Origin: Polytrichum commune
Taxonomy: Eukaryota > Streptophyta > Polytrichopsida > Polytrichales > Polytrichaceae
DNA: 64,000 nucleotides
Direction of reading: 5' to 3'
Assembly (NCBI GenBank): GCA_950295325.1
Contig: OX485808.1
Location: 43,978,527-44,042,526 of the forward strand
A program made the position numbers and the translations under genes. The first letter of the stretch is position 1. Each line of letters begins with the position of its first letter. Positions 14,515-54,129 of this stretch are shown here, piece by piece. Under the pieces are notes generated by a model, which had not been told where the DNA came from, ran no database searches, and worked only from the letters and a program-made list of their open reading frames with translations.

Positions 14515-15310
14515 CGCCCAACTTTGAAAAATAGAACCACTCTTGCATTCTTGAAGGCCACTTGTCCACATAACCCATATTGAGTGCACTTCATCTTCAA
14601 GGTCTAAAATCCAATATATATGTTCACCTACATTGAATAAATAAGCAAATGATTGGCATTTCATTTTTGAAGTGGAACTGTCAATAAAACATGCAATTAA
14701 CTTGGAAGTCAAAAATGTTACAAAACCCTCATTCGCACTGAGGTTATGTTTTTTGTGACTCACCGTTGAAAGGGTCTTTGTCATTCTAAACAATTAAACC
14801 AAAAAATATGCTCACCAAATTAATTGAACTTGATTAATTATAAAATGCACTTACTGGAAATAATCATGATTTGTTTTAGATATGAAGACTGATGTGCTTA
14901 ATTACACTTGTTAAGAATGACAAACACCCTTTCAATGGTAAGTCACAAAAATTATAACCTTAGTGCTAATAAGTGTTTTGTAATATTGTTTACTTCCAAG
15001 TTAATTGCATGTTTTTATTGACAGTTCCACCTCAAAAATGAAATTCCAATCAATTGCTTATTTACTCAATGGAAGTGAACACATATATTGGATTTTAGAT
15101 CTAGAAGATGAATGTACTAAATATGGGTTATATGGACAAGCGGCCTTTCAAGAATGCAAGGGCAATATTATGTTTTGAAGTCGGGCGGAGTGGATAGAAA
15201 ACATGGGCTTCATCCGAGCAGTGAAGGAGGTGTGCCCGAGGTGGGGTCTAGCCTTGGACACATGTGATCTAGCCCAGGGCGGATGCTTTAAGGCTCCGTG
15301 ATATTTTAAA
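14515..15310. repeat. Inverted pair of repeat arms, copy A
   Basis: The arm at 14515-14790 recurs inverted at 14910-15190, separated by about 120 AT-rich bases, so the pair can form a hairpin. The right arm continues to about 15310 with sequence that matches, inverted, 8083-8200. Thus 8083-15310 is bracketed by long imperfect inverted repeats. On the minus strand the left arm encodes a 112-codon frame including GEHIYWILDLEDEVHS. The copy B equivalent is 47153-48815. Confidence 0.7.
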
Positions 15311-15899
15311 GCCAATAGTAAATCCTCGATTTAGTACAAGCCTCTCGAGAGTCGATACCTCGCATGGGTAGTTGGCACTTGCCACCTTTTCTTTTAGTAT
15401 CGTTATTTGAGTAGCACCTCATGATCCTCCTCCCGCCACCACATAACTCTTTCCCCCAAAAATGCAAAAAATACCGACATTTCTCATGAGGAGCTTGCTC
15501 TCACTAATTTTGATTTTAAAGGATATATCCTTGCTTGTGGAAACTATGAGATCCATCATTCTATTACATTCATATAAAAAATTAACCATGTCATAAAGAA
15601 TAAAGCCTTGATTGCTTAAAACAATCTTAATTTCATCAAGATCATAATAAGAGGAGGTTGTCGTTTTAGGTTTAATGGGTCGGGGTTTAATAATAACTAG
15701 CGCACTTCAATTAAGCGATTTTTTTTCATAATTCTTTATTATTGTATGGATCTTCTAAATATGTACAACTTGGTTCCATGTGGCTAAGGAAGACAATCCT
15801 TATTCACTAATTATTTTCCTTAATATGACATAAATATTGAGTGGTATGTGATCTAGTGTGGCTTAAAGACATATTCCAAAAAAAACAAAAATAATGAAA
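15311..15899. other. Shared duplication backbone, no gene recognised
   Basis: Closely matches copy B at about 48816-49399. No domain, element end or exon signal is visible. The poly-A stretch near 15880 is replaced by an AAAAT microsatellite in copy B. Confidence 0.5.
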
Positions 15900-16577
15900 T
15901 TGATTTTAGAGTCTAGGAAGCCAAAAGGCTAATGGGACTAAAACCTACAAGGTGGCATCAAACTGGCTAATATCCCTACAACGGCATAGTGTAGAGGCCT
16001 CTGTGAGATAAGGGCCAATATTAACTTGTTGGTCTAATTGAAAGGAAGACTTGAGATTCCCTAATACTAACTTCTCAAATAATGATTTAAACTTATCTCT
16101 AATGGGGTTGTATAGGGGACACTCTAGTATAAAGTGTGCCTCATATTATACGAGCAAGAGTGAAATAACCTATTATCTCTAGAGAAAAAGATAGCGGACC
16201 ACCATCTAGTTTTGATGACAAGTATGTGACTTGAGATGCAATAAGCGACAAAGATCATGTATTGTGATGATGTCAATGGTTGCCTCATGTAATTCACATT
16301 TATATTTAAAAAATCCTTGAGATGTAGGTAATCTACACTAAATATGATATTTAGTTTCATATGGTATATTTATGTCACTATGGAAACTTTTCGGATAACA
16401 CTTCTCATGAATAAGTGAAGAAATTTTGTCATGGATGATGGATGAGGCCATTGACCAAGCCCTACCCACTCTAGTCAACAATTTGTGATGAAACATTGTC
16501 ACGGATGATTGAAATTTGGATGAAAAATCACTTGGTAAGCAACGATAATCACAACACTGTAAATCTATAATACCCAA
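15900..16577 (-). pseudogene. LINE-like ORF2 C-terminal remnant, minus orientation
   Basis: Read from 16577 downward, broken frames give a CLPSDFSSKFQSSVTMFHHK segment, then VNYMRQPLTSSQYMIF. After a frame change the sequence reads YEAHFILECPLYNPIRDKFK, followed by VLGNLKSSFQ. The last part is homologous to the plus-strand remnant at 10687. The HFILECPLYNPIR signature is known from C-termini of non-LTR retrotransposon proteins. Stops and shifts separate the pieces. The same decayed remnant lies in copy B at 49400-50077, so decay preceded the duplication. Confidence 0.5.
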
Positions 16578-18536
16578 AAAAGATTACAGAGAATGACAAA
16601 TAATGTAGAGTTAATAGTTAGTGTTGGTGACACTATACTGCGGTTTACTATTAGTATTGAGCACATAATTAGTTTGGTGACACTAAATATCATATTTAGT
16701 GTAGTTTCTTCCTCAAGAGATGGAAAGAGTGCCACTCTTTAGTATGAAAAGTTTCATTGATATTATCAAATGTGAATTTTAAAGTATTCATAAGAGATTG
16801 GATTACTTGGTCAATCTACCATATTTATTTGAGGATCAAAAGTCAACAAAACTAGGGAACGTGTATGATCATTTAACGAGTATGAGACTCTTCACTTTGA
16901 TAATGAATAGGATATTCTTATGATCTAAAAGAAATGAAGAAAGTTGGTACGTCCTCAATTTAAATTTGTTAACTATCTTCTCCTAATCATGTATTTAATA
17001 TCATGTGAAAAGTGAGTTAGTTGGTAAAAGAAATTCACCACTTAAGACGCATCTACGTTATAGCTTCTCAAATTTGGATTTGCTATATGGTAATGTGAAC
17101 ATGATTAATAAGAATAATGTTAATCCAATAAATGATAAGAATATTGGTAGAGTGAGTTTAGGTTAAGATATGGATATTCATGCAATAAAGAGTGTGAAAC
17201 ATGAGCATTCAATTTTTATTTATTCATAAGCAACAGTGTCCATGTATACTTTCTACCTTACCCAAACTATAATGATTATTGTAATACCTTGCCTAGATAA
17301 ACTTGGTATCTTTAGGATTTTCCAAAACCTTGCCCAAATGAACCTTGAACTATATTGGAACTGCTAAATTTCAACTACGAGTAAAGTGTGGCTCAAAGTT
17401 AAAAAGTTTATTTTGGGTACAAATTGAAATGATTCAATTGCAAAAGGTAACCTAAAGCAAACCATTATGAAAAAAAACCACCCATTGACCTATAGGGCAT
17501 CAAGTAATAATACCCATATTGTCTCTAAACTTCCACATAACACTCCTAGTGGCAGTAAGGCCTTTGACACACCACGAATCCTCAAAACCATTCACAACAT
17601 CATCATGAACAACATTAGATTGTATGGCTCAAAATATGATTAGCATAAAGCAACATACAATATCTAAATGTGAACCAAGGATATTTAACCTATTAAGCCT
17701 TTTTGGTGATAAGACCCTTCACCACTTTAATATATTTTGTGCTCATTCATTTCCTTCATTTAAGGTTCTCAATAGAAGGAGAATCCCAACCAATGCCCGG
17801 AAAGATTTTGGGCATAGTCGGTCAAGATCCTAGTGATTCTAAATCAAGTCACTTCCATGTTGACATCTTCCGATTTTGTTTTCGTTCATTTGAGGTATGT
17901 TCTACAGATTCCTCTAGAATGATCGGTGATTCTCATGAAGTCTTCAATTTCAACCAGTTATTTCTCATACTCAACTGGTTCATCTGTAACTAACGGCTGG
18001 TTCTCAATAGTCTGCAATTCTAATATACAAACATACAATTGGTGGTGGTGCTAATTTATCATCACACCATTCTTTGCATTTATGGAAAGGTGGGGTGACC
18101 AATTAAGAATATGTGTCAAGTGTAAAGGACAATGCATGCCTATATTAGTAACCTTACAAGCAAACAACTTTCTCATTCTTGTTATGAGAGTTATGGCAAC
18201 TACATGACACTACGTGGATCATGTGGTTTACCATTGTACTATGTACATGATTTAGTGTGGTAGTAAAATACGTATGGTATGTCAACCCTGAACTCATTTT
18301 GCCCAAAACATTCCAAATTTTGCTTCAAACTCATTAGCTAATTTTCTTTTTCTTACAATGAATAAAACAATGTGATGGTATTGGTTGGATAACCACAAAG
18401 TTAGGAATATGTAGTAACGTATTCAACATTCTAAGTGTTGGCATGTGGAAGACTTTAATATAAGAATGCAAGTGATAGTAGTGGCCATTATTAAGACACA
18501 TATTTTAGCAAGACTTTGTTACTATGGATGAATATA
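16578..18536. other. Shared duplication backbone, no gene recognised
   Basis: Nearly identical to copy B at 50078-52033. A palindromic word (ACTAAATATCATATTTAGT) occurs near 16683, with a related one near 16340. They belong to the GTGTCAC/TTTAGTGT repeat family also seen at 36870 and 41570. The frames near 17624-17993 are short and unconserved. Confidence 0.5.
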
Positions 18537-18581
18537 GGCACCACGGGCCTTGGCTCGGTGGTTAGGGCTCATGACCCCCAA
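18537..18581 (+). mobile_element. 5' half of a tRNA-derived SINE, split by a large insertion
   Basis: Starts GGCACCACGGGCCTTGG and contains the box A-like TGGCTCGGTGGTTAGGG. It is identical in layout to the intact copy at 52034. The sequence breaks after CCCCCAA, where the 5930-bp element begins, and resumes at 24512. Confidence 0.85.
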
Positions 18582-18629
18582 CGAGCCACTCGGGGCCGAG
18601 GCCCCTCCGTTGGTGGGAGGAGGAGGCCC

Positions 18630-21600
18630 CTCGTAGGAGAGGCGGTTCATTTGAAACGCAACGAGGGTATGCGGGTGTGAAGTTAAGACCAAACTCAATC
18701 ATGATATGCTCAATAACGGGGGGGAAAAATAACCAAAAAAAAAAACTTAAATTGATATCTTTGAGGTATAATTACATGTTGGCTTTGTGATCTTCACATT
18801 TCCTCATCCAAAAAACGCAACGTAGATTGTTCACAACATGCTTTCATTTCATGCTAACTTATGATTAGGTTAGTCTAACTCCTTTATGCTTCATGCTTGT
18901 CACGCACAACATTGTATAGAGTTCGCATAGTGCATGGTGAGCACTTGCAAGGCTTGAACTCCATATGAATTGCTCTGATGTGTGTGTCCAAATTGGAATT
19001 CTAAAAACTGGATCCTAGGAGATCCTCCAGTGTGCAGTAAAGTGTGCATCTGCAGCTATCTATTCAACATGGATGAGCCGCATACATCACAACTGACATG
19101 ACAATGTGACAATTCGTGGTGTGCTTGTAGCCGAGAAACATCAACAAATACCTCCCCACACCGCGGTTCCATGCACACTACATGGTCAACCACCATGGAC
19201 TCTGCATACCCAAAGGAAAATACATTCAAGAAATCAACATTTCAAGTTGCTCAAGCATCACTTGGATTTTCGTGTGTGTGACCTTTCAACCTTGTTAGCA
19301 ACATAACTCCTAAATATACATGATTTAGCACAAACATCAGAATACAAGGCTCATCCATATTATGAAATACCACGTACGAAGCCACAACAACATAGCTACA
19401 AAGTTATATACAGAGGAGTACTAAAAAAGTCCATTAGGTGAATCCTTTAGCTAGAATTGTTGTACGAAGATGAGCTTAATGTGACCATGTCCATTGGGGT
19501 TGTGGTTGGACATCAGCAAGTCAATTGCATGACTTAGCAGAGCTTTAGAGTGTGGATGCTCTTTTACAATCACTTAAGCAATTGTCAACTGACACTGTTT
19601 AAAATAGGCACTCGTATATAAGAAGTTATGAACACATGTTTGCATCTTTTTGGAGTGACCTCTTGTGTGACTTCATGCTCTACAAACAGGGAATTGGTAA
19701 TGTGGTGACTAAACCAATATTGGGAATTTCCTTGTGGCTGGAGGGACGTGCCACCTCAACTCTTTTGACAAATTTATTTTTCTGCATATTAACAAACATC
19801 AAGTGGCATGCTCTTGATATTTTGTTGCAAGGAAGGCATTGTGTTGGTCAGTTGGTGATTAAGCAAATTACGTGCATCTTGTATTTGAAGGCTCTTGATA
19901 GGATGTTGGTGGATTTGTAGCGAATACATTGGACTGGCCGGATGTCATTGAACATATGGAACAAGACTTGTAACAGATGTGGTCTATTTCCATAGTAATT
20001 GCAAGGCATTATCTGGTACCCATGTATCCAGGGGCTCGTTTGAATTCCTTAAAAGACATGACAAGATTGAACATTGTTTTCTTATGGGTTGATAGGCCTT
20101 GGTGAGCGTACGGAAGTTATATGTGGTTACTTCCATTGTGCAAATCTCACTTGTAGCATGAAGACATGCACATCTCTAGGTCCTCAGTAGCCCAAAGCCA
20201 TCTTCTGGACTTTATATTGTGCTTGATCTTACTCCAATGAAATGATGAGATGTTTTGTATAGCTCCTTGAGCTTTATCTTATCAGCTTCTCCTCACCTAA
20301 TTTTGTAGTTTGGATTTTGTGTTCATATTAATCTCATATATTGCTCAAATGAAGCAATAAAGCTTGTTTGCCCTCTTGAGGACTTCCTAGTAAGCTACCT
20401 CCCATTAACCCTTAATGTTATTCGAGTACCACCCCCTTAGCACCGGTTGGAGGTCCTGGGTGAGAAGAGGATATTTTTTGGCTTTCTTCATAAAGATGTT
20501 ATGAAGAGTGGATTTGGGTTCACCATGCCAATCTCCCACCTGGTGAATGGTTTTCCCAATGGAATTACTATATCTACTAAAACTATTGACTTTGATCCTC
20601 AAATGGTGTTTATCTCCAAAGAAGAGTTGTTGGGAATATTTTTCTCTATTCAAACAAAAAAGTGAATTATAAATAAAATTGAAATTACCTCAAGATTAAT
20701 CTTTAGTGCATTAAATTGAAGTCAAGGTGCCAAGGTGAAAATGTATGCAAATAGTAAAAATTGGACCAATATTTCAGCTCTAATGAATTGAATGACAAGT
20801 CTTTAATAATTGAAAATTGTTGTTCACATTCTATACATGTCAGAATGCAAACTGTTGTACAAGCTCTTTGCTCGAGTTGGCTAAACTCAAATTCTGCCAT
20901 AACACTTGGCTTTGTCTCTAGGAGCATGTGAGGAGTAGAGGGAATTGTTTCATCATACGCATTCCTCTCCAGCTGACAGTAGGTGAAAGCTAACTTCTCT
21001 ATGTTTGCTATCTCAACCTTCCCAAAGGGATCCCTATGTGTTGGCACCCAGTAGGACGGGTTCTTGTCCAACATTCCGAGCCTCCCATTTTCGTGCCTGT
21101 TACTTGTGTTCTCCACATTACGATATAAGGAATTTGTTGATGCCCCATAAATGCTTGGCCTGTAAGACGTCTCTTTCTTCACCAAAGGAACAACATTTCC
21201 ATAATGGCCATGTCCGCATTCATCACCGGCATTCTGCAATGTATATGTAGTATTTTTAGCAGACTGCTGAAGTGGGAGGTAATTATATGTTGGAGTGGGC
21301 ATATCCAGAATGGTTGTTGTCACCCAAACCCGGTATCAAAAGAGGACTTTTGCATTCTTGCAATCTGACCTAGTTCTTCTGGAACTGCAGAAAATTAAGA
21401 AAATTATGAGGGCCTGCAATATTTTTGCAATTCAGAGATGATGAAAAGGGCAGATGATTAATTTCTGAATATGAGAACATTGTCAACTATTTAAATTTTA
21501 TCCATAACTCCAATCACAAAATCCAAATGAGGGGTTTAAACACTTCGAGCTCAACTTATTGACAAAATAAAGAATATTTTTCGCAAGAGGAAGAATAGGT

Positions 21601-22258
21601 ATTGGATGTTGTGGAAACTCACCAGTCCCTCTAGGAGAACAAAGAGTTATGACTGCATCACAGAGGATTCCCAATTGCGACAATGTTTTCAACTTGATTT
21701 GAGTGGTTCGTAATGGTGAGGATCATGTTGTGTCAAGAAGTGGGCATGGAATGAAATCTGAAGGTAGCAGTTTTCTTACGATCTTTAGGTTTTGTCTATT
21801 TGTTGTTCTAGAGAGCATGATATAAATTAATCCGGGTGCGAATGCGTTCCGAATATCAACAATAACTTTGGTTGATATTGTTGCACCTAGTGATTTATGG
21901 CCGGTCATTGTGTATGCTAGAACAATTGGGAATGACGCTTTGTAATAATATTGTTCATATGTGTAATTGTGTTGGAAATTGTGTCGTTTTATGGAGATTT
22001 TGTGGCAGCACTATTTGTTCAAACCGTGGTGGACTGGTCACCAAATCAGACCCTGCAATGTTGTTTAGTCGCAAAACTCAATACTTTCTTCAATTAGAAA
22101 CATTAGGGACGATTCTTGGATTTCTGAACTTGGGTACGAATGGATGAGCAGGAGAAATCCGGAAATTATGCGACAAGAGAGGTTGTTGTTGCAGTCCACA
22201 AAATAGTACAGGAAGAGCGTTAATACAGGAGAAATTTTGGGGTTAAATAAGAGCTCCG
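18630..22258. other. Interior of the first large element, unassigned cargo
   Basis: Mostly AT-rich. On the minus strand a 206-codon frame at 21323-20703 is the longest in this element. It contains PTHRDPFGKVEIANIEKLAF but matches no family I know. A shorter minus frame at 21692-21606 ends at a splice-donor-like GTGAGT after ILCDAVITLCSPRGTG. A plus frame at 20447-20665 is unassigned. The same-strand frames and possible splice signals suggest captured exons, but I cannot name a source gene. Confidence 0.35.
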
Positions 22259-23020
22259 ACTAAGATCAAATTTGTGCAGAGGTGAAACTCTGCCATGGCT
22301 GAGGATGATCTCGGGAGACAACCAGAGACATGTGCCCATTTCTTATCATGAAATTAAAAATGCAGAGGGGGAGCTTCATTCTCTTCAGATTCTTCACCAC
22401 AACCTTTAATCGAACAACACCAGGACAGAGTTCTGAAATCTCTTAACGTTCTCTGCAACGTCCACTCGTCATTTTCCAGAATGGGCAGCAACCTTCAGAC
22501 TTTCCTGTGGCTCCTTCCCTTCCGTCACTGCTAAGACACGAGAGACCGATGTTTTGCAAGTCCAGGAAGTTGAGGTCACCATTAGGTTGAACCAAACATC
22601 TCATACACCTCAATGACCGCGTGCACCGAAGATGCACTGCGCAGGACAGTTTTCGGGACCAAGTTCAGAATTTTGCAGAGGTTAAACTCTGGCATGGAAT
22701 AAGCTGAAGATGATCTGCGGAGAGAGATAACCAGAGACATGTGGCCACTTCTTCTCACGAGATTTAAAATAATGCAGAGAGGAGAAGCTTCATCCTCTTC
22801 AAATTCTTCATCACAACCCCTAATCCAAACAACACTAGGACATACAGGGCTCTAAATTCTCTTAACATTTTCTACAACGTCCACTCCTCAACCTTCGGAA
22901 TTACCTCTTGCTCCTTCCCTTCCCTCACTGCTAAGACACGAATAACAGATAGTTTGCAACTCCAGGAAGTCGAGGTCACCGTTTAGGTTAACCCAAACCG
23001 AACAAGCTCCAACCAGCACA
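22259..23020. repeat. Two-copy ~400-bp tandem duplication inside the first large element
   Basis: The block starting near 22259 (GCAGAGGTGAAACTCTG at about 22276) repeats from about 22659 (GCAGAGGTTAAACTCTG at about 22675), period about 399. Each copy contains AACCAGAGACATGT and a stretch that on the minus strand reads NGDLNFLDLQ or NGDLDFLELQ followed by SCLSS and GREGA. Several differences between copies are conservative in that frame, which hints at a captured exon. Confidence 0.8.
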
Positions 23021-23947
23021 CAAACACCAAACAAAAAACGAGAAGCTCGATGTTCCCTAACCTCGAATGCTCCCCCAACGAGAGAAAGCCTCGATGAAGC
23101 ACGTGGAGTTAGGGTTAACATCATCATCCCAGAGACCATAGTACACTACCATACCCTTCATCTACTGCGGTAAAAAGTCTGTTACCTCCCAGTCTCCATC
23201 ACAACTCTTCACAATCCACAGCCCCTCCGCACCTAGCGCTGTCCAAGCTTGATTACACTAAAACGACATAGAGTTGCAAAATTCTCTGTACTCTCTCACT
23301 CTCTACAACCCCGATCGAAAGTGTGAGTGGAAGTAACGCAGGACGATGCCCTATTCCAAACACTTACTCCCACCCACAGGCTTAATTAACTAGTACACAC
23401 GAAACTTATAGCTCGGCCACATGTGAAAATTGTTCAGAGCTCGATTCCAACATGATCCGAGATGCTCACCCTAAACCTTGAGCAAGGAAAGAGTGGAATG
23501 AATTATCCTCTCCTACAACCCCATCTGTAGTATCCCATAAACCATAAGTACGAAAACACCGCCACAGTGACGACACTCTTTCCGAAGATTTTTGAGTCGC
23601 GGATGCGACGATGCGAGGATAGGAGTGAGACAACCGTGCCTAGTTTTGTTTGCTTCGTTTGTCGAATTGTTCGCAACAACTAACCCCACTTCGGTGCATT
23701 GTCTGCCGACCTCGTATGGATGGCGGACGAAAACTTAAAAATCGTTTCATAGGTTAGGTTTCTTCGAGGATTACAGGTTGCAAAACCATAAGCACACCAT
23801 CATCATCACCACCACCACAGCCTGTCGGTTCCTAAAATGCACCCAATCACCAAACCAAAAAAATCGTTGTGCAAAAACGCACGAACAAACAGGGGCGACG
23901 CCCGCCCTCTTCTTCCTCCTGCTCTCGGGGCACAAAAGTCGCCAACG

Positions 23948-24447
23948 AACCCTAACCCTAACAGGTGCACGATTCAAGAGGCAACGATAAATCTCTCTTT
24001 ACGCCGACTCTCGAATCTTTCATTCCATTTCATTCGATACGCTTAAAAAATCGTTGAAAAACGCCACGATCAGCATCTTTCCATTCCAACCCCTGATCCC
24101 GAATTCAAGAGTCCTCGAATTCGAAGACATCCAGTTCACACACAACGGGAAAAGAAACACTATCTTCCTGTAAGCGGAGGAATCACCTGTCACCAGAAGG
24201 CGTGCAATGAAACCCGATCTGTCGCTCGAAAGAGCAAATTCAAAGTGCCCTTTCGTCTGAAAATTCCGTTTCTTTGTGAAATTCCTTTGCAAGCTATCTG
24301 GAATGACGTAATCGTTAGATTGTGCTCGGGTGCAGCAGCATCGCAATGTTTCGTGCCCATCGCCACTGACATCGCACAAAACTCGAACTCGAACCGAAGA
24401 GCCTACAAGTCAAACTCGAACTCGCAAACTAACCCTAACCCTAAAAC
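23948..24447. promoter_or_regulatory. Telo-box-like motifs in captured promoter-like DNA
   Basis: AACCCTAACCCTAAC at 23948-23962 and TAACCCTAACCCTAAAAC at 24430-24447. AAACCCTAA-type telo boxes are known in promoters and 5' leaders of plant housekeeping genes. They lie in a G+C-rich stretch near the right end of the first large element. The match is a short sequence match only. Confidence 0.4.
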
Positions 24448-24511
24448 GAATAGGTGACGTGGCCGCAGGAGAGGCCAGCATTTCGGGAGGAGGCTCTAGG
24501 CCTCCTCCTCG

Positions 24512-24787
24512 ATGAGGAGGTTGTGGTTCTATTCCCCGTGCCAGCGTGGTGCTCACCATCTTAGTCCACCCAACTATGGTGGGGGGTCCTTGGACCTTGT
24601 TGTATGGGTACCTCAAAGCCCTTTGGGGGGATACCATGTCTGGTATCTTCAAGGCACTAGTGGCTAGCTAGGAACTAGTATGGTGTGTCACTATAGTGTC
24701 CATCCTCCAAAGGGGAGAGTAGTATTTGTCCCAATGTCCTCTTGTCCAGTGGGCATCGGGTCATTGGCATTACGAATGGACACTTTA
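24512..24787 (+). mobile_element. 3' part of the split tRNA-derived SINE
   Basis: Resumes with ATGAGGAGGTTGTGG and contains the box B-like GGTTCTATTCC. It then follows the same tail as the copy B SINE (52079 onward). The SINE's true 3' end cannot be fixed because both copies share the downstream sequence. It is followed by the 2659-bp insertion. Confidence 0.75.
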
Positions 24788-24795
24788 TTCACGCC

Positions 24796-27454
24796 CACGG
24801 GGAGGTGACTATCGGAATTTTAGAAACCACGTGAGATAAAAAAACAAGGTCAATTTAATTCGTTGAGGGTAAATTTTATAAATTTGTTAGATCTACCATA
24901 GCATTGGAAATATGTCCCCTACATGATTATATGTAAAATAGGGTGGTGAATAATTCCTCCATTTTAGTAATCAATAGAAAAATAAATAGGGTCATAGATT
25001 TTGGATCCCCCCAAATGTGTGTAGTAGGATCAATACAATAATTATGGGTTTGACTACTTAAATGAATATTGTGTAAATTCTATCCAAATTTGAATGAAAC
25101 GCATTCGGTGGTAGAAAATGTTGTGGATTTTATTGGGGGAAGGAATGTTATGACTTCTCAATAGCCCTTGGGCTTGCTTAGGGTTTGGGCAAACACAGTG
25201 GCGTGAAGGCGGTGAAGCGTTCAGGTAGGAGGTCTTGCGTTGGTAAATCATGAAACAGTGAAGCGGCACAAAGGCAGTAAGTAAGACACATTTTTTGGAG
25301 CTTTCTTCTTTGCTTCATAGCATTCACATAGGGTGTTTCATGAGAGCCGAAGATTTGGCTTGCTCCGCTCTCGTGTGGTAAGAGTCGATTTCAAACTCCA
25401 ACTCCTTGATTTTTCCCTTCCACTGACCGTTTTTTAACGACATGTTATTGATTTCCGACACCCTCCTAAATGTGAGATATAGAAAGATGAAGAGTTACAA
25501 GACCTGAATATGAGTGTAGAAATATGAGATCAATGATTACATCAATGCTTCATTTTCTATAAAATGAATGTTGTTGGGTCTTGGGATGGATTGTGGAGTG
25601 TATTCTATGTAGAGAAGTACGACAATTATTTCAGCTACAGTTAAATCAATTGTCAGAAGGACTAGGGGAAGACCTTCCAAAATTTTACAAACTACATGTG
25701 TTCTTAATGGAGTTGACTAGGGCACGTGGTATATATAACGAGTTTAGAAAATGAGATGGAAGGTAGTACAAGTTGGGGAAGTTGCAGACATCTCATTGAC
25801 CTTCTTAATCGGAAGGTGAACAATGATAAAAAAAAAAAACAAGTATTGTCATATTCAATTTTATGGTTTATCTTAATTATTTAAAAAAATCCTTAGACAC
25901 TTCAAATTCAAATATGACCACTCAGATGTTAGTTAGGTTGATGTAGATAGCGTAATTTGTACAATGACTATGTCATTTGATGTAGAGAGGAATGTCTTTG
26001 AGTTTGATCCGGTTGATGGGAACTTCTTGAATGAGTATGTTGAAAAATCTACATGAAATTAATAACGATGTAGAATATTGGTTGTGACCCCATACCCATA
26101 TCACAAAATGACTAATTTTCTTTCTAGTGTACAAATTATGAATGATTGGTGTAGAAAATGTTTTCTAAGTTAGTAGATGTTATTTAATTTATGAAGTTCT
26201 CTTACTTCATTCAAAGATGTCGTTTATTAATGAGCATTGGATGGTTGAGGTGATAAACATGTATTAAATTTTTCAAATCCATGAAGATGATGAATTAATT
26301 TTCAATCCAAATTCGAAGGAAGCTAGAAACTATGTTTTCCTAAACCTTGAATTTGCACCTTTGCTTGTTGTTTGGTCTTGTATAAATTTTTGAATGAGCA
26401 TATTCAATTCTCTAAATATGAAAACCTAGTTTTCAAGCCATAAAATTATGAGAATTAAGGTTGGCTTGTGGTTCATTCTTCATTAGTTTTTGTTGTTCGC
26501 TTATTTGTCTTGCTAGTAATGTCCAATATGCCAACATTATATTGATTATCTTTTTGCTACAACTACCTTTTGTAGATGATCAATGGTGTGCTACAACATT
26601 TGGCAACTTCACCGTGGTAGACTCAGAGGATTGCGCTTTGCCTTGAAGAAGATGTGGTGGAGTGGTTGGAGACTTTGAAGGTTGCCCGCCTCATGCCAAC
26701 AATTAGTTTTAATTGTTCCTCATCATTGGTTTTAAACCTCTCGAATTTTTTTAGTCTAATCATGACATTGTAGAGGATATTGACATGTACTTTAACATGT
26801 ATTGGAGGGTGCATAATTATATCGTAACCCTTCACACTGTAAATATTTGGTACAAGGTTGAATGTGTTTGTGAACACAATTAATGTAAATGTTTTCAATT
26901 TTGTATTTAGCTTTCTTTCATTTTGAATGCAATCTTTTATTTTTGGAGTAGATAGTTGTGCAAAATGTCATGTCTTGTGACAATTGATTGTATTTCTTGT
27001 TTTTTTCTATCCGTATTTACAAACTGTCTATGTTAGCTTGTACATTTTGTTATCTCCATGTTGATTGGTAACCTTTTAACTAGTATCCAAGTGATATTGA
27101 TTGTGTCTTAAATGGCACATTGAACGGTTTAGCATTGGTATACCTAATTGAGACCGATTGAATGACAAGATGAATGATATGGAACGTTTGTTGCTCACAT
27201 AGTTGATTTTGCAATGCTATAGTATTCCGTTCATTATTTGATACTTGTACGATTTATAAAAAAAATATGATGCCAAAAATTAACCTCTCTAAACAATTAC
27301 AAATAAATATAGGGTGCTAAAAAATAAGTCAAAGTAGCTTTATATCTACAAATAGGGAGGGAAAAATTATTGAAAGGTGCATAAATATCCCCCCATTAAA
27401 TACCCCAATATCGCACGTGGTTACAAAATGTAATGGGGGTGTGATCCCCCCGAG
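24796..27454. mobile_element. 2659-bp hAT-like element, probably decayed
   Basis: Flanked by TTCACGCC (24788-24795 and 27455-27462); copy B has the site unfilled at about 52352, with one substitution. Ends are imperfect inverted repeats: CACGGGGAGGTGAC on the left and CTCGGGGGGATCAC on the right read inward, both leading to AAACCACGTG about 30 bp in. An 8-bp duplication suggests hAT. The interior has broken frames, such as one around GLGEDLPKFYKLHVFLMEL near 25660, but no transposase motif I can name. The ends resemble the 401-bp MITE at 10947. Confidence 0.75.
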
Positions 27455-27462
27455 TTCACGCC

Positions 27463-29026
27463 GGCCCCTTGCTTGAAAGGGGTTGGAGTTTCTATCTATG
27501 GTTGAATGATGAGGTTACATTCATTTTAGATTTAGCCAAATTCTCATGACAATTTTAGAAAGTAACCCATGATTAGTATTTATAAGATTCATTTTCATTC
27601 AATGTAATTTTTTGGGAGGCTATGTAGTGACATGATATTTGGATGCTTACTTCCATTCTTTTAGTAAACTCTATATCTTCAACCAAATTTGTCATTGATC
27701 CCAAGGGTCCATGTATTGCAAGGAGTAAATAAGGAGATTCACACAATTTTAAGGACATTTAAACACCACAATAGCCTTTTGATAGCCTTCCATAATGTTA
27801 AGTTTGCTTCAAGGGAAAATGGTGGTACTAGTATATGGCCTTCAAAAATTTCTCTTGGGCACATCAACTCTTTTCTTCTTCATTTTTACATAATTTACAA
27901 AAATACAAGACAATTGTGAGTAGGACAATCAACCAAAAGACTTGGGATTTTTAGACATTGTTGACTTCTTGGGAAGTTCACTATAATTTAGAATAGCCTT
28001 CATGAATTGTCATGTTGCATCAACAAGTGTGAACATATTGCACTATCATTGCGTGGGTTGATAATGAATAATGTGGACCACACTACATCGAGTATACATT
28101 GTGGCTATATTTCACTAGATAGCTTTACAATCTACGAATATGGTAGATGGTGAATCCACATTCATAAATTTTATATCATTATTCTTGAAAAGAATTGGTG
28201 ATAAGACCGCATAATTCCCATAGTGTGACACCCTATCCTAAAAGAACATGACTAGGTCAGACACATGCACTCTCATTCACGTCAATCCATAAAAGAACAT
28301 CTATGTTAATTTTTATTTTTATTTTATTCCCACATTGTGAGGATATTTGTATCAAGATCCAAGAACTTCAATAAACTCTAATTGGTGGGATTATCCTATG
28401 ATGGACTTTCTTGTTTCATGGATTGAGAATTAATTTATCAAATGAAATCCACGAATTGTAAACAAAGGTTTAATCAAAGCACACCCAAAAACCAACACTA
28501 TGTATTGCAAGTCATATAATTCAGAGCCCCAAAATGTTTGACTGAGGTGCATAGTGTTGGTTTGAGGTTCAATGTTGGGTTTGAGTAATGGCCTATATGG
28601 TAACTTTAATTGTTGTATGTATCCTCAACATGTATGAGGGAGTACATATTCACAACACCTACCATCAAGGAGAGTGAAAACATTAATGCTTGCTTAAACC
28701 CCCCGGGGTTTAACACCTAATTAACACCTAATTAACACCTAAATCAAAGTCAAAGTATTGAATTACTTTGCATGAATCATAGTTCAATTTAGCAATAATC
28801 ATAGGTTTATTAATATATCTAAATAACAAAGGTCTACGCCTATAGGTTTATATATGTATACATATAGTATCTACCTATAGGGGTAGATATGTATTGCACC
28901 ACCAATGGTGGGTGTTGGGAAGTGAAATCCTACATGAGGCTAGATATTTGTAATGTCTATGTAAACTCATTCATGGGGAAGGTGAAATTGGAATGACCTA
29001 TTCTACAACCTAGAAAACTACAATAA
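27463..29026. other. Shared duplication backbone, no gene recognised
   Basis: Matches copy B at about 52366-53917 with high identity. A short unit AACACCTAATT is present in one more copy here (28712-28745) than in B. No coding signal is convincing. Confidence 0.5.
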
Positions 29027-29368
29027 CGAGCCGCTAGGGGCCAAAGGCCCACCGCTGGTGGGAGAAGAAGTCCGCAGGGAAGTTGGCAAAGCAGAGGTTT
29101 GTTTGGGAAATAGGTAGTGATGCTTACACCAAAAGAATCATCAAAACAACTACGAAACAATATGGAATGGTTTGATTTTTGATGTTGGCATTGAAATCTG
29201 GCCCACACCTAATATAGGGATGATTGATATAATGTAAGCCATTATAAGATGGCCTGCAATAATCTTAATTAAGCTGTGTTTGGAAGTGTGCATATGGGTA
29301 TTGCAGTTCCGAGGGCCTTGTAACATAGTTATTGCCAATGAAGATGCCTCACCACATCCTTTATGACA

Positions 29369-29560
29369 TTTTGTGGCACATACTATTTGGAACTACACAA
29401 GGCTATTATTATTTTGTATATATATCATTATTTGCCACCATACTAGGTCAAATAGGTTGTTTAGGGTTATAGAACATAATCAACTTTACTTGGTGAAATC
29501 TTACATCACAAGTAAAAAAGTAAAAACATGGTGTAACTCTAGAGTAAGTGACACTAATTA
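29369..29560. mobile_element. Short GTGTCAC-type MITE nested in the second large element
   Basis: The left end reads GTGGCACATACTATTTGG followed by AACTACACAAGGCTAT. The right end, read inward, is AGTGTCACTTACT followed by AGAGTTACAC. Length about 190 bp, matching the elements at 34601-34797 and 53924-54120. Non-coding. Confidence 0.6.
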
Positions 29561-30698
29561 TGATGAACAGTGTAGCACCATCACCACATGTGGAAGTATG
29601 CTTACTTTCACTAAACTAGTATGTGCAATTAGGCTACATTCATGAATATGTTGACTCTTTACCCATGCAAATAAACTTGGGCCAAAACCAGATCAAAAAA
29701 TCTTAAAAGTTTGTTTACACACCATATAGCAACCACATAAATTCATTTGTTTTGTTATTAAATGGTAATGAATATTCATAACTATGTGAGTGTCAACAAA
29801 TTAGCAAGGATCAACCTAATTGCACATATCAGTGTGTATGTCATATAAGCATTTAGTTCCCATCTTAATTTGGTCCACATCTAATTTTCACATCACAAAA
29901 TCTTGGATGCCTAGGTGGATAACCAACCCATGCTTTAAAATTCCATGGATCATTTTGAAGAGGCAGTACTATGCAAGTAGGATGGTTCAGCATCTGCGAG
30001 ACCTGTTATATCTAATTGGTGAGAAAATGGATGGTATACATGACTTCCCACCGGTTGAAGCAAAAAGGCCAATTGAAAGGAGTACATATCCCAGGCTTCA
30101 AGGTTTGAAGGTCTTCGTATTGTATATCAAGAATTTGCTACATTTTGACATGACTGCCAACCCCCACTCACTGTTGTGACAGTTACACAAGCACCTCTAA
30201 AGGTCATTTGCCCAGCTGGGGAATAGGAATCTGATATGTTGCATATTTTGAAAACAATGACATGAATGCCAAATTATTAGGAACCTAGTGCAAGTAATTA
30301 CGTGATCTGCTTGCTAGTACACTTAGGTGAGTATCTTTAATCTTCCAATTGGAACTCAACTAAATCATATTAGGACAGGTCGTAACAAAATTCCTTCACA
30401 TTGGAGCAGGATACCTGTATCACTGGAAACTCCTTTAACCACTACTGTACTTGTACGTGAATGAATATTTCAGGATAAAATGACTCGAGTTAATGATCTC
30501 TAACAAAAGCACAAGTCTCAGCAGAATTCCTGAGCTAAACCAGTCAATAAGTGAGGTCTGCTCTGTATCTGACTAGCTTCTCTCAATTCCTCAGTCCCCA
30601 CTGCCCGTTGTTGAACAGTCAGGACAGTCTCAATCCCTGAAAAGAATGTTTCTTTGCTCGGAAAAAAGCTACAACCGTTTTAGTGCGGGAAACTGTTT
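29561..30698. other. Cargo of the second large element, unassigned
   Basis: A plus-strand frame of 119 codons ends at 30179 and contains LLYLIGEKMDGIHDFP and VLYIKNLLHFDM. I do not recognise it and no partner exons are evident. The rest is AT-rich without signals. Confidence 0.3.
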
Positions 30699-30815
30699 CT
30701 AAACTTCAATAGTTGATTTCAACATAGCCCTGTCTGATTCAGGCCAGAATACTTTGTGCAATTCCTGCACACACCTTGGAGCATCTTCATCATCCACCAC
30801 CATGGAGATATTCAC
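30699..30815 (-). pseudogene. Captured last exon of an aspartokinase-like gene
   Basis: On the minus strand a splice acceptor (GAAACAG at 30816 upward) opens a 38-codon exon ending in TAG at 30699. It begins VNISMVVDDEDAPRCV and continues QELHKVF. This resembles the C-terminal ACT segment of plant monofunctional aspartate kinases, where VNIS(L/M)VV is followed by a CV.xLH.xF pattern. Aspartate kinase catalyses the first step of lysine, threonine and methionine synthesis in plastids. No catalytic exon is visible upstream, so only the tail was captured. It lies in the same orientation as the small gene at 32069-33548, inside the second large element. Confidence 0.6.
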
Positions 30816-30908
30816 CTGTTTCATGCAGAAGTATAAATCAAAACCTTGTCTCATGACAATATCTTTGATAATCAATGATGTAAAATGAAAAATCCATTGT
30901 TATTTTCT

Positions 30909-30926
30909 ATTATTATTATTATTATT
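30909..30926. repeat. TTA microsatellite
   Basis: A run of about six TTA/ATT units between exon-like segments of the second large element. Confidence 0.8.
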
Positions 30927-32068
30927 CCCTTTGTTTGCCATCTCCTTCACCACCCACGCCATCTCCACCATTCCAACACTGCACCACAAACCCCACAAAA
31001 CCTCAGACATACATTAGGTAAAGATTAAATTTTGAAGCATTAAATTTTGAGGTGAGGAAGAGTAAGCTGACAAAGAAGAACACGTTGGACAGGAAAATGT
31101 CAAAGGAGCACTCAATGCAATGCAACCAAAGATTCACTCTCTGCTGTTGCTTGTGTCGTATTTCTTTCACAATGAGAACAACCTGTAAGATGCTGAAAAT
31201 ATAATTGTAAAACTTGAGACTGAATGAATGTCAAAAATCAAGCTTCTACCGTAGGTTGTTTGTCTGGTGGTAATTGCTGCAAAGAGGGCCACCACTACTG
31301 CAAAGACCAATCCCCACGTAATTACCTTCCTTTTGAGCTGATGCTGTTTTGCAGCAATCTCAAAAGTATATCACTAATTTACTGTGACCCTTCAACTATT
31401 CTTGGATAGATTGATGCTAGTAGGCTATGGAACATTTTCCACAAGGTGCATTTCACAAATCAAATGACTCAACACGCAAATCTGTATTGGGTTAAATTTG
31501 AAGTGATGTAAACATATTTGCATCAGTTTCCTATAGATATGCTGTTGAAGTCCAAAAGTCTAAGAGTTAACTTGCATAAAATGGATAATGTAGCCAGCTC
31601 ATGACATGCTCAATTTAGAAGACATCTGTCGCTTTGAGTTTCTTAGTTTCTCTGCTCTTAGTTGAAGCTACTTTCTACATGACCCAATCGATAAGGAATC
31701 ATTTTTCCATCTACATCAGGACCCTGTTAGATGATTACAACAACAAGTTTGTTCTTGGAATATATAAAATCAGAGTTCCAAACCATTCAAGCCTCTGCAC
31801 TTGGGTGCACTTGGAACTGACAATCCGCAAATTTGAATACAAGATTCAAACCTGACACTATGTATTCGTGACAACTGAAATGAATTGGCACATTGTAAAA
31901 TACATTCTGTTTGTCGAGACTGGTAAATTCCACAGATCAGACAAGGATCAGACTCTAATCACTATGGGGGAAAATCTACTTTAGTAGGGAACACATGTAT
32001 AAAATGCTGATCATAAAAACTACATACAAATCTTTGAGCTCATGTTATTACCTACCAGGTACCGCTGT
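30927..32068. other. Cargo between two captured minus-strand exons, no gene recognised
   Basis: On the minus strand this lies between the stop of the small membrane-protein gene and the aspartokinase exon. It may hold a 3' UTR and part of an aspartokinase intron. No further exon could be assigned. Confidence 0.35.
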
Positions 32069-33548
32069 TTATTCCTCGCTCACTCGTCGATTTCGCTTGC
32101 TTGTTCCAACTCCTTGTTCCTCATATTGTGTCACCTTTGGCTCGCTGTATAGCCCTTTAGCTTTCAGCTCCTCCATCTCCTCTTCCTGTGGCAAGAAATC
32201 ACAGCAAAAAGCTCTTCCAAGTGAGTGCAGGGATATTAGAGTTGTCATCAATGTCTCTCAAAAACTCAAGTTTTGGTACGGAGTTTCACCCCACTTTTAA
32301 CAACTTTAAAATGTTGAAGGAATATTCAAGTGGTGTTGGAACCCCCCATTTTGGTGAAATGAAGCAGAGGTGTTCAACTTTGGCCAAGTGACGGTTATAT
32401 TGAAAATTGAACTCCTAATCAAAAATTCCATATGAGGTGTCTTCAAAAGTTTGCGATGAAATTCAAATTTGTATAGCCATCTTTAGGCCCAAGTCAAACA
32501 CATCCCTGTGAGCACAAGAATGATCAAGTTTATGCCACATCAGAGTACCGAGGACTATCTGAAGGTTCAGAATTCAAGCATTCTCATTCCACATTGATTA
32601 GATTGATTGAAAGGAAGCAAACACATGCAAAAGGATCACCAATTTTGCTTCATTGATCTCATTGATTAATACACCACACTCGTCCAACTTCATATTTTTC
32701 TTTGTAGAATTTTGCTAAAATGATCAGGTGTCACCCAACATCCTCACTGTTATTCATCATTAACAAACAACCTTCAACATGGGACTTTCACACACGACCA
32801 AGAACTTTGGAGGAAACCGAAGATGTTCACATGCTTCTTTGGCCTATGGTTTTTTGCTCCATAGGCCAGTTGGCATCACGTCAACTGATTTTGATAACAT
32901 TAAAGTCCTACATCTCTGATTGTGAAGAAAACACCTGATCTACTTGACGTTTCATCATGCCAAGCATTTGGAAGGAATGTTGTGGTTCTCATGCTGTAGA
33001 ATACAGCTCACCAAAGGTCAAACTGTGATGTCCACCAAAACCCAAAAAACCTGGGCTAAAAGGATAGACAGAAGAATTCTCTCCATGAAGCAAAGGGTTC
33101 CCATTGGATTTCTCTGAATCATATTATTGTGTCTATGTTTTCCAATCAATGGCCTACTTGGGCAGGACGTCAAGAACTTCAAGTGTGTGATCACAAGCGA
33201 ACGACGAAAACGTGACATTCACTAATTCCACCGTAACCAAAATCATTTAAGCTAAAAGGTTGGACAGAAAAAATTGTCGCCCTGAAGGAATGGGTTCCTC
33301 TTGGTGTCTCCGGATCCATGTTGGACAATCGATGGCCTACTTGGGCAGGGACACCGGCATTAGATTGAATTTTGTTCTTGAAAGAAACCCCAATTTAGGT
33401 ATAGGGTTTAGGGTTTAGCGGACGTTGTTGTGCTCACCTCCTCTCGGATTTGGTTGTCCATACCCTTGGACAGCAGGAATCCACCGATAGCAGCGAACGC
33501 CGCAAGGGACAGGACTAGTGCAACCGCTGCCATGGCCGTCACCCACAT
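32069..33548 (-). CDS. Two-exon gene for a 75-residue single-pass membrane protein, carried by a transposon
   Basis: Exon 1 (33548-33438, 37 codons) begins MWVTAMAAVALVLSLAAF, a clear hydrophobic helix, then GGFLLSKGMDNQIREE, and ends at a GAG|GTGAGC donor. Exon 2 (32185-32069) follows a TTGCCACAG acceptor, reads EEEMEELKAKGLYSEPKV, and ends in a basic KRNRR segment before TAA. The junction keeps frame (phase 0) with no stops. The intron is 1252 bp. The product would be a signal-anchor protein with a charged, glutamate-rich tail; the family is unknown to me. The gene lies wholly inside the second large element, with G+C-rich upstream DNA to about 34250 that could be its promoter. Intact splice signals suggest recent capture or continued use. 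Confidence 0.6.
33402..33417 (-). promoter_or_regulatory. Telo-box pair in the first intron
   Basis: On the minus strand this reads TAAACCCTAAACCCTA, starting about 20 bp inside the intron of the small membrane-protein gene. Telo boxes near transcription starts or in first introns are known for plant genes expressed in dividing cells. The role here is inferred from the motif only. Confidence 0.45.
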
Positions 33549-34250
33549 GGTATCCCCCCGCCACCAGCTTCAACTCTTAAACCCAAAACCCTCCGCCGGT
33601 TCTCGCTCCCCCTCCACGCGACGACCGCACCGTTCATCCCCACCGCCTCCCGCCACGCTCTCACTCTGTCCCTGGGCGCACCTTCGCACACTTGTGTTGC
33701 ACTTCTCCCTCTGCTGCCAATCGTCAACAAATTGGCAGAAGAAAGGCCGAGCTGGACGCTGGATTCCAACAATGCGCGCCCCAGCAGCGACGACGATAGC
33801 CGCCCGTTGCGACGACGGCCCAAGGTGTCCGAAACTTGGTGAGGCTTGAAAGAGCGATGTAAATTGTTGGAGCTGGCGTTCAAAATTGTGGAGCAGCAGC
33901 AGCAGCGGCACAGCTCCATGGCTTCGATGGGGTTTTGGTTTGCCCAGAAATTGGAGTTTATACTCGCAATTACTGCATCCCCAACTTCTTGGATTAGCCT
34001 CCTGTGAATGTGGGAATTCGGGGAAACTCTCAAATCATGTGATTTCTAAGCCGCCGAGCGAGACACAAACCCACTACTGCTCAAGAAACTTTCCGGGCGA
34101 TAGGTCAGGGAAGAAGAAGACGCAGCTGGGTGGTTTGATTTCGACTCTCCGAATCACAATTGTGTGCAAATTCGTTCCTGTCGATTCTCCAACTTCAGCT
34201 GCCACCACAACTCTCGAGCGTCGCCGACTCGTAGGGTGATGAAGAAGATG
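33549..34250 (-). promoter_or_regulatory. Putative 5' leader and promoter region of the small membrane-protein gene
   Basis: Base composition rises in G and C from the exon 1 ATG at 33548 up to about 34250. Overlapping open frames occur on both strands, typical of G+C-rich non-coding DNA rather than several genes. I see no clear TATA box. The region is unique to the second large element. Confidence 0.35.
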
Positions 34251-34600
34251 GCGTAATTTTTTCAGTGTAATTTCGGAACAGCATTTTAGAGGGAATACTG
34301 GACCAAATTCGTTAAGAAGACTATGGCTGGAACTGGAAGAAAATTTTCGATCGAAGCGTATGTGGCACGGGGACTATTGCGGAAAGGGAAGAGAGAAGGA
34401 GGGTGTCGGAGGCAGTGGCTATGGCGAAACCGGAGAGACGGAAAGCAGCTTCAAGGAAACACGATGGTCAAAATGACAGAACTACGTAGATTCTACGTAG
34501 ATTGGTAGATTAACGGCGTTTTCGAGGTCTGAGTGGCGACGTGGCCTCACGAGAGGCCAGAACCCTGTTTTGGGTGCCATAGACTTCTTCTCGACTATTG

Positions 34601-34797
34601 TATTGAGTGTCACATACTATTTGGAGTTACACATGCTATATATTTCCCTATTAATGTACATTTATTTATCAAGTAAAGATGTTAATGTTTTACAATGTCC
34701 AAACAATCACTCTGACCTTTGTTGGCAAAAAAAACAGAGCCATAGAATACATAATTATAGCATTGTGTAGTTCCAAATAGTAAGTGACACTCAATAC
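34601..34797. mobile_element. ~197-bp GTGTCAC-type MITE
   Basis: Terminal inverted repeats TATTGAGTGTCACATACTAT on the left and TATTGAGTGTCACTTACTAT on the right read inward, continuing through GGAGTTACAC or GGAACTACAC. The copy B equivalent is 53924-54120, so the insertion predates the duplication. Here its left end lies 8 bp from the second large element. Non-coding. Confidence 0.75.
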
Positions 34798-35002
34798 ACT
34801 ACTTAGTGCACTTTTTCCACATAAATTTACTTTAGAAATAGCATCCAAGATTCTAGCCCTCAACTTCTAAGGAAATTATTTCTACTATAACTCTTCGAGT
34901 CATAATGGATGAGTTCAAATACATAGATGCATTGAATCCGAAACTGCTCACTACTTGATTCTAGACCTAAAAACAAAAACTTAAATAGGCTTAAATTGAG
35001 TA
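34798..35002. other. Right end of copy A backbone
   Basis: Matches copy B at 54664-54863 apart from the 534-bp insertion there. Homology between the copies ends at the TA where the Tigger derivative begins. Confidence 0.7.
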
Positions 35003-39718: not shown

Positions 39719-40183
39719 GTGCGTATTTCACTCATATCACTTTCTAGACCCTCTTATTCGATGAATCGCAATGGGAAACAGATGAAACTTGAGGCAACTT
39801 GCTTGACCGAAGCCCAACGATGTGAAATCATTGCAAAGTTGAGCAAGCCGAACACGCTGAGCAAGCAAGCGTTGGGGCGGGAGTATGAAGTTAGTGAAGG
39901 CGCCATCCGGGAAGTCTGGGATAATCGGGAGAACATACTGCAACAACATCCAACTTATCGAGACATTTGTTTGAATTTGAAGGTGCTACCGATTTCAAAG
40001 GCTTTGAAGCTCTACACAACATTGTCCTCAACATCGATGACCAAATTGCTTTGCTCTAATGTTCAAACGGAAGTTGGACATATGTATGATGAATTGCGAC
40101 AATCATTTGAAAAGTTTCAGCGAAACGTTAACAAACTGACATTAATGTCAAGCATAAAAAATTCATGCATTCGTGGCAAATGA
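39719..40183 (+). CDS. HTH protein fragment, pogo/CENP-B N-terminal type
   Basis: A 154-codon frame. Residues about 28-75 (CLTEAQRCEIIAKLSK, LGREYEVSEGAIREVW) fit the psq-type helix-turn-helix found at the N-terminus of pogo and CENP-B transposases. The more likely start is the internal methionine before NRNGKQMKLE. The remaining 80 residues are helical-looking (HMYDELRQSFEKFQRNVNKL) and no DDE domain follows. It is therefore a truncated transposase, or a small DNA-binding gene derived from one. The intact frame, with no stops across 154 codons in AT-rich DNA, is notable. Flanking GTGCG/ACTTA words are direct, not inverted. Confidence 0.45.
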   Translation: MRISLISLSRPSYSMNRNGKQMKLEATCLTEAQRCEIIAKLSKPNTLSKQALGREYEVSEGAIREVWDNRENILQQHPTYRDICLNLKVLPISKALKLYTTLSSTSMTKLLCSNVQTEVGHMYDELRQSFEKFQRNVNKLTLMSSIKNSCIRGK

Positions 40184-41790: not shown

Positions 41791-42526
41791 ACATCTTCCA
41801 CATATTTAATAAGAAGTGAAGACAAATGAAGCCCAAGAGTATGGTCAAACTCTAAATTTTTTTCAAAACTGCCACTTTTGGGCATCTATTAAAAAAAATC
41901 AGCACATTCAATTTTTGGTACATGGTCATTCTTCTTTATCCACATTCGGTTTACACCTCGTGAGGGGGCCAAGGCTTTCAAAACTAATTTCTTAAGAAGT
42001 TGGACCATGGAAGTTGGACCATGAACTCCGACCGTTGAAAAAGGCCCTCTTCCATGGTCCGACTTCATGGTCCATGGTGTAAACCGCCCCTTAGTGTCAC
42101 ATGCACTATTTGCAAAGGGCCTGAACTAAATGCCCACATGACTCAAAATGTCATGCTCACTAATTGTTGACGTGATTCTATTTGTCAACATAAGTAACTT
42201 CTTTAAGTGAAAATTATTTATATTATGACATTTAGAGTAGCACATTGCGATACGTTAGATGATAGCCTTGCACTTAAGTGTGCAAGGGGAAGACATTTTT
42301 TATCGCACTAATGGCAAGTGTCATGTGTTTACATTTTAGTATGCAAGAGGAAATTGTTCTAAGGACACTAATGGCAAGTGTCATTGGTGACACTTTAGTC
42401 AGTTTGTCGACCATTTGCGTAACATAGGCATGCACCTCATAACACTATTGGACATGCTCATGCCAAGATATTAGTAAGCTCTCTTGAATGCCAAGTGTCA
42501 AGAGGTGACAATTATGTGAAGTTGTT

Positions 42527-44241: not shown

Positions 44242-44246
44242 TTGTT

Positions 44247-44650
44247 AATCATCGATGTAGCCTAGCATAACCCTTAGCTAGATCAAATCTACCCAAGGTT
44301 GGGCCCCACTTTGGGCCCGCCTCCTTCACTGCCCGGATAAAGCCTATGCTCCCCACCCACTCCGCCTGACTTTGAAAAATAAAACTACCCTTGCATTCTT
44401 GAAGGTTGTTTGTCCACATAACCCATAATGAGTGCACTTCATCTTCAAGGTCCAAACTCCAATATATATGTTCACTTCCATTGACTAAATAAGTAATTAG
44501 TTGGGATTTCATTTTTGAAGTGAATACGTCAATAAAGCATGTAATTAACTTGGAAGTCAATAAATATCACATTACCCTCATTAGCACTGAGGCTATAATT
44601 TTTGTGACTTACCAATGAAAGAGTCTTTGTCATTCTAAATGAGTGCCTGT
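44247..44650 (-). repeat. Repeat arm with conserved open frame, copy B arm 1
   Basis: Equivalent of 8083-8474. The minus strand has an uninterrupted 103-codon frame including NGSEHIYWSLDLEDEVHS and GSIGFIRAVKEAGPKWGP, which is broken in copy A. The hAT-like MITE site is unfilled here. Confidence 0.6.
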
Positions 44651-54120: not shown

Positions 54121-54129
54121 CACTACTTA

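Follow-up and report, generated by a model that had tools for sequence, protein, structure and literature searches.

Helitron2 elements have been defined by asymmetric terminal inverted repeats together with hairpins at the 5′ and 3′ ends (Bao & Jurka 2013, PMC3627910). The same account describes compensatory mutations in two related elements, proposes that the repeats pair at termination, and names Helitron-5_SMo as well as Chlamydomonas Helitron2 elements. For Helentrons, an endonuclease is given as the hallmark (PMC5148889), and PMC4067079 reports no secure Helentrons in most plant genomes. In the literature consulted, accounts of Helitron2-type elements chiefly concern animals, fungi, oomycetes, and algae. 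Among these elements, FoHeli of Fusarium oxysporum was credited with 27 putative captures, which were not judged important for that genome (PMC5148889). Here, we describe two elements, el1 and el2, in a stretch of 64,000 nucleotides from the plant Polytrichum commune (contig OX485808.1, positions 43,978,527 to 44,042,526 of the forward strand; hereafter the window), part of a 407.8-Mb assembly in 64 contigs. They are very probably non-autonomous members of two Helitron2 families, mobilised in trans, now or formerly, by the Rep and PIF1-type helicase of their relatives, and have acquired host gene DNA in sense orientation.

This assignment is built on ends, empty sites, a target, paired words, a Rep-helicase in relatives, cargo, and candidate sources, all of which can be read in the assembly. 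Since the Rep-helicase of the relatives is read leftward across the window, the right end is taken as the 5′ end of both elements. Their termini are as follows.

18581 to 24511, minus strand: el1, read as a non-autonomous Helitron2 element; 5′ end at 24511, 3′ end at 18581/18582, one terminal A ambiguous (ends read, empty site, copies).
24484 to 24511, minus strand: 5′ terminus of el1, with the word CGAGGAGGAGGCC folded within a 9-bp hairpin (GGAGGAGGC/GCCTCCTCC; DNA fold of 24440–24511, z −3.11).
24460 to 24477, unstranded: 5′ subterminal hairpin of el1, TGGCC-8-GGCCA, common to el2 (sequence and fold).
18617 to 18628, minus strand: 3′ copy of the word in el1 (GAGGAGGAGGCC on the plus strand), 35 bp from the end.
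18592 to 18605, unstranded: 3′ terminal hairpin of el1, GGGGCC..GGCCCC, a palindrome by sequence.
29026 to 34593, minus strand: el2, likewise read as a non-autonomous Helitron2 element; 5′ end at 34593, 3′ end at 29026/29027 (ends read, empty site, copies).
34582 to 34592, minus strand: 5′ terminal word of el2, GAGAAGAAGTC, after the first base C.
34542 to 34559, unstranded: 5′ subterminal hairpin of el2, TGGCCTC..GAGGCCA (sequence and fold).
29062 to 29072, minus strand: 3′ copy of the word in el2 (GAGAAGAAGTC on the plus strand), 35 bp from the end.
29037 to 29050, unstranded: 3′ terminal hairpin of el2, GGGGCC aaa GGCCC, a palindrome by sequence.

A preliminary description of this DNA had noted CGAGCC left ends, a GGCC hairpin near the left end, and GACGTGGCC...GAGAGGCCAG near the right end of both elements, and direct reading of the ends finds each of these in place, the hairpin as GGGGCC/GGCCC. 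It had also put an inverted copy of the right-terminal word exactly 35 bp from the left end. This holds for el1 and el2 and for 22 of 28 end pairs tabulated across the genome, the other six having an offset of 34. The words begin 1 bp from the 5′ end, inside the 0–2 bp expected of Helitron2, and a GGCC palindrome lies between the 3′ word and the element end. In el1, inverted matching of one 60-bp end to the other extends over at most 12 bp, and in el2 over at most 11 bp; shuffled ends reached these lengths in 0/2000 and 1/2000 cases, respectively. Beyond the ends, the two interiors are unrelated, as had been claimed: of 16 matches listed between el1 and el2, just two have E <0.01 (the first 47 bp, at 79%, and a block of 26 bp located 33 bp in from the right end, at 88%), and the remaining 14 have E values of 0.097–4.1.

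The genome-wide pairs were assembled from four end queries, the left (L) and right (R) ends of el1 and el2, with the best 40 matches taken for each from 97, 256, 86, and 174 rough candidates. No place was matched by two different queries; at least 80 left ends were scored in the genome, and some copies are nearly identical. Pairing ends on the same strand, in the right order, and within 40 kb gave 20 L1–R1 and 10 L2–R2 pairings, one L1–R2 (the left end of el1 with the right end of el2, within the window), and no L2–R1, a list in which two pairs are more than 30 kb apart and two right ends are each assigned to two left ends. Keeping only nearest pairs <20 kb apart left 26. The 28 tabulated pairs are the two of the window, 24 others from the nearest-pair list, L045, and L104/L098, with one copy on contig C2 entered with its outer left end.

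In clade 1, the family of el1, the left word is GAGGAGGAGG in 18/18 pairs and the right word agrees in 16/18, two being changed; in clade 2, that of el2, GAGAAGAAGT occurs at both ends in 9/9; and the word of a third subfamily matches at both ends in its single pair. Overall, the 10-bp words are identical between ends in 26/28 pairs (16/18 in clade 1, 10/10 in clades 2–3), and mixed word pairs number 0/28. Fisher's test on 16, 0, 0, 10 gives p 1.9e-7, for copies that are related and so not independent. The sampled unpaired ends (20 left and 10 right of 108) carry the expected words only. Co-variation of the paired words across copies, which the preliminary description had proposed as a check, is thereby borne out: the words agree within an element (26/28 pairs) and vary by family. 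The difference is, however, essentially one split between families of related copies, and therefore does not amount to many independent compensations: three positions of the words may have shifted jointly in a single event, which lends support without multiplying events. Movement of el1 was recent, since its copies on C5 and C7 are 99–100% identical as rounded (over the 3.8 kb of el1 searched).

The target can be read from the window itself. Self-comparison uncovers a segmental duplication, 7351–35003 against 41791–54864, which is colinear with interruptions and consists of blocks at about 91–98% identity, for example 15232–18585 against 48733–52082 (98.1%), 24512–24794 against 52078–52361 (97.5%), 27455–29027 against 52355–53918 (96.4%), and 34594–34836 against 53917–54159 (91.8%). 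A further insertion in copy 1, at 24795–27454, lies between el1 and el2; it is flanked by a 7-bp direct repeat, TTCACGC, which is single in copy 2. Both el1 and el2 lie in copy 1, and copy 2 has neither, both of its sites being empty.

52078 to 52082, unstranded: el1 empty site, within copy 2.
53917 to 53918, unstranded: el2 empty site, within copy 2.

Site 1 reads CCCCCAATGAGG when empty and CCCCCAA[el1]ATGAGG when filled; site 2 reads CAATAACTATT when empty and CAATAA[el2]ACTATT when filled. Comparison of filled AA[CGAG...CTCG]A with empty AA shows that the elements entered between two As, A^A (T^T on the opposite strand), with no target duplication at either empty site beyond one ambiguous A. 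At both, the element unit is either ACGAGCC...CTCG with an A on each side or, in an equivalent reading, a unit whose insertion duplicated one A. The earlier claim of insertion at AA without a long target duplication is thus upheld by the empty sites, although the exact unit carries one A more than had been supposed. Further copies of the el1 target repeat (L055–L064, the 10 read of 40 listed) are empty in 10/10 cases, reading CAATGAGG. Helitrons are not known to excise precisely, and both insertions therefore most likely postdate the duplication.

The same preference extends through the genome, in line with the AA/TT insertion that had been anticipated. Among the 28 pairs, the left flank is A at −1 in 28/28 and at −2 in 26/28, giving AA on the left in 26/28, and the right flank is A at +1 in 28/28. 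Unpaired single ends show AA in 19/20 left and A in 10/10 right cases, against window base rates of 31% for A and 11% for AA; the end queries included the AA flank, which biases slightly toward such matches. These sites bear on the proposal that el1 and el2 are DDE transposons, akin to miniature inverted-repeat transposable elements with short inverted repeats. CGAG does stand at both termini, and a DDE_Tnp_4 fragment lies in the tail of the relative L043 (E 6.6e-7), but this fragment turned up in 1/10 frames scanned, the Rep-helicase is what family members have in common, and the repeats are asymmetric. With two empty sites lacking any target duplication beyond the ambiguous A, this proposal is already contradicted, and we give it practically no weight.

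The Helitron2 assignment is carried further by the relatives of el1 and el2. No match to PF14214 (Helitron_like_N) occurs in the window; genome-wide, there are 34 among 41 candidates scored. PF14214 lies in five copies that carry a family end on the 3′ side or on both sides (L041, L042, L043, L045, and L098). PIF1 scores above cut-off in three of these five (L043, L045, and L041), L098 falling outside the PIF1 scan. The Rep-helicase that the preliminary description had hoped to see in an autonomous copy is accordingly encoded, as PF14214 plus PIF1, by copies with the same ends. In L041 and L042, the Rep is accompanied by a family 3′ end that could be read. Both family ends accompany it in L043/L044, in L045 (clade 2, degenerate), and in L098/L104 (the third subfamily), and L100 is a Rep copy with a family 5′ end only. 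Targeted motifs located family 5′ ends in 2/9 loci scanned (L098 and L100) and one 3′ end (L104) in additional flanking DNA; no 5′ end appeared in the DNA examined upstream of L041 and L042, and no 3′ end for L100. The Rep frame of L042 matches Helraiser 7lcc (E 8.6e-6, the best of 2 matches), as does the helicase frame of L043 (E 6e-11, sixth of 13, after five other helicase entries).

L043 has two 3′ ends 2 kb apart (L043:115 and L043:2117), of which the inner resembles that of L042 and the outer that of L041. This nesting could reflect read-through past a terminator, but the inner end is without an A flank.

Two other kinds of Helitron can be weighed against these data. PF14214 and PIF1 are expected of Helitrons in general, and a 3′ hairpin is found in Helitron1 too (PMC3627910), so that el1 and el2 might be canonical Helitron1 elements, a type with 5′ TC and 3′ CTRR termini, whose ends are atypical. 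However, their 3′ end is GGCTCG(T), not CTRR, their target is T^T, not A^T, and paired words stand at both ends; already contradicted by ends and target, a Helitron1 origin is scarcely credible. A Helentron in the strict sense would have the same ends and an AP-type (apurinic/apyrimidinic) endonuclease fused behind the helicase. Insertion at TT and subterminal inverted repeats match the Helentron description (PMC4067079), but no AP-type endonuclease was detected in 10 frames of L041–L043 (of the 40 longest listed) or in six frames of relatives, a scan in which some frames were broken and short ones lay outside, so that absence is unproven. We consider a strict Helentron very unlikely. Of the two types named in the preliminary assignment to Helentron/Helitron2, Helitron2 is the better fit.

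The cargo of the two elements, and the parts they hold in common with other copies, are listed below.

20838 to 21709, minus strand: el1 cargo, the 5′ part of an EDR1/CTR1-type kinase gene, in the same sense as the Rep frame of relatives (DNA match to L096).
21698 to 22005, unstranded: el1 segment common to the Rep-helicase-bearing relatives L041, L042, and L043, at about 89–92% identity.
29110 to 30852, unstranded: el2 shell common to three sister elements, 99% to C1:46809093, C1:36798071, and C1:7443220.
31034 to 34274, minus strand: el2 cargo, a host-locus stretch including 726 bp upstream of the predicted ATG (DNA match to L095).
33438 to 33548, minus strand: predicted exon 1 of the el2-borne gene, 37 codons.
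32069 to 32185, minus strand: predicted exon 2 of the el2-borne gene, 38 codons and stop.

The guess that these elements capture genes is supported, with L096 as the candidate source locus for el1 and L095 for el2. The el1 cargo matches L096 (C2:45751495-45752774) at 90.7% over 773 bp and 89.5% over 105 bp, and a further frame of that locus contains PF14381 (E 4.4e-25). The open frame of el1 has 69% identity to the source frame over 186 aligned positions, a low value given 91% identity at the DNA level, and hence no sign of protein constraint. Capture from spliced RNA was considered for this cargo and is not supported, the 403-bp gap of the source relative to the cargo having no obvious GT–AG boundaries. 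Also inside el1 is a direct repeat, 22258–22597 / 22657–22998, about 75% identical.

The el2 cargo matches L095 (C5:40819121-40822390) at 89.1% over 3340 aligned positions. Element and locus share an ATG, a GTGAG donor, a CACAG acceptor, and a stop, giving a predicted 75 codons in a two-exon model drawn from splice signals only. The predicted frame is intact, with 2 replacement and 5 silent differences between el2 and L095, and its product matches no Pfam family above cut-off. A search with 1.5 kb of this cargo also places it, at 99% identity, inside another element, 8.2 kb long, on C7. Three sister elements are 99% identical to the first 1.74 kb of el2 and absent among the matches listed for part of its cargo (best 40 of 425 candidates), and el2 and these sisters are probably one shell with different contents. 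Within the cargo region, 32232–32508 has 69–85% matches at many genome places and is probably an older dispersed repeat. Both cargoes have the orientation of Rep. Of five family end motifs, none was found in the 10-kb locus of L095; the 10-kb locus of L096 has a GAG-repeat run and a lone GACGTGGAC, which is not an end.

Several observations weigh against a simple version of the Helitron2 interpretation. A single intact Rep-helicase frame is present in 0/4 of the relatives listed (L041, L042, L043, and L045). The second A of the target is missing in 2/28 pairs, and the C2 copy at 68103316 has an inner left end, dropped from the 28, that is flanked by G, not A. Changed words occur in 2/28 right ends, and the third subfamily's ends share just 10 bp, the 11th base differing without compensation. 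Folding is also uneven. At the el2 5′ end (z −2.41), two hairpins adjoin the word, which itself pairs by its edges only, with a partner about 60 nt inward that is found in just 5/8 clade-2 right ends. In the third subfamily, the word is unpaired in the predicted 5′ fold, which is not above shuffles (z −0.46), and the 3′ ends of el1 and el2, palindromic by sequence, fold no better than shuffles (z −0.82 and 0.33, not significant).

If the Helitron2 interpretation is correct, Rep would nick at T^CGAG, the 5′ terminus on the right in the window, near which lies the subterminal GGCC hairpin. One strand would be displaced toward the 3′ end, with displacement ending at ...GGCTCG^TT, once the 3′ word and the terminal GGCC hairpin have been passed. 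The displaced strand would then be joined into a TT dinucleotide without target duplication. The words at the two ends would have to match, whether for recognition of both by a single Rep or for pairing of the copies with each other at termination.

The elements described here form a genuine group of young plant Helitron2 elements that carry host gene DNA, and their kind is already known. A bolder proposal is that Helitron2 is a gene-duplicating system in this plant: el2 would have moved a complete small gene (726 bp upstream, two predicted exons, and an intron), with its cargo also in a second element; whole working genes could be spread; and the words changed at three positions would mark direct pairing of the ends at termination. 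We regard this as doubtful. Three features stand out: how abundant such elements are in a plant, the pair of empty sites, and the small predicted gene with its intact frame. SMo, in the element name given above, denotes the plant Selaginella moellendorffii. No report of a gene-carrying Helitron2 in a plant was found in the literature, for which coverage of journals was incomplete. Here, in chromosome-scale plant DNA, such elements have relatives that encode Rep-helicase, carry host genes, and can be compared with two clean empty sites that neighbour one another within a single duplication; the two families offer a natural test of mutual recognition by two ends.

Elsewhere in the window, frames at 13073–13705 (minus strand) and 39719–40180 (plus strand) contain Tc5-type (PF03221) and CENP-B-type (PF04218) DNA-binding domains and are likely remains of pogo-like transposases. 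Strand asymmetry is strong at 42001–44000 relative to the rest of the window (GC skew 0.28, AT skew 0.15). In the genome at large, SAM_LFY (PF01698) scores above cut-off at 4 places, against 0 in 14 control genomes; together with the EDR1/CTR1-type gene, this makes a green-plant host very likely.

Set beside described systems, el1 and el2 resemble Helentrons and HINEs (Thomas et al. 2014, PMC4067079) in their subterminal inverted repeats, 3′ palindrome, TT insertion, and captured gene fragments, and differ in that none of the frames scanned has an endonuclease of the Helentron type. With FoHeli (PMC5148889), they share Helitron2-type ends and a 3′ repeat about 20–40 bp from the end; FoHeli has no endonuclease, and none was seen in the frames scanned here. 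The end sequences and target differ. The closest likeness is to Helitron2 (PMC3627910): asymmetric inverted repeats of 8–15 bp with the 5′ copy terminal and the 3′ copy before the 3′ hairpin (here a palindrome by sequence), a Rep-helicase, no target duplication in Helitron-1N1_CRe, and compensatory changes. Matching words with such changes are thus already published for Helitron2. In contrast to that description, the 3′ word lies 34–35 bp from the end here rather than 20–30, the target is A^A/T^T rather than TTTT^T/C, the word of el2's family is not clearly in the 5′ hairpin, and the elements of this plant carry host gene cargo.

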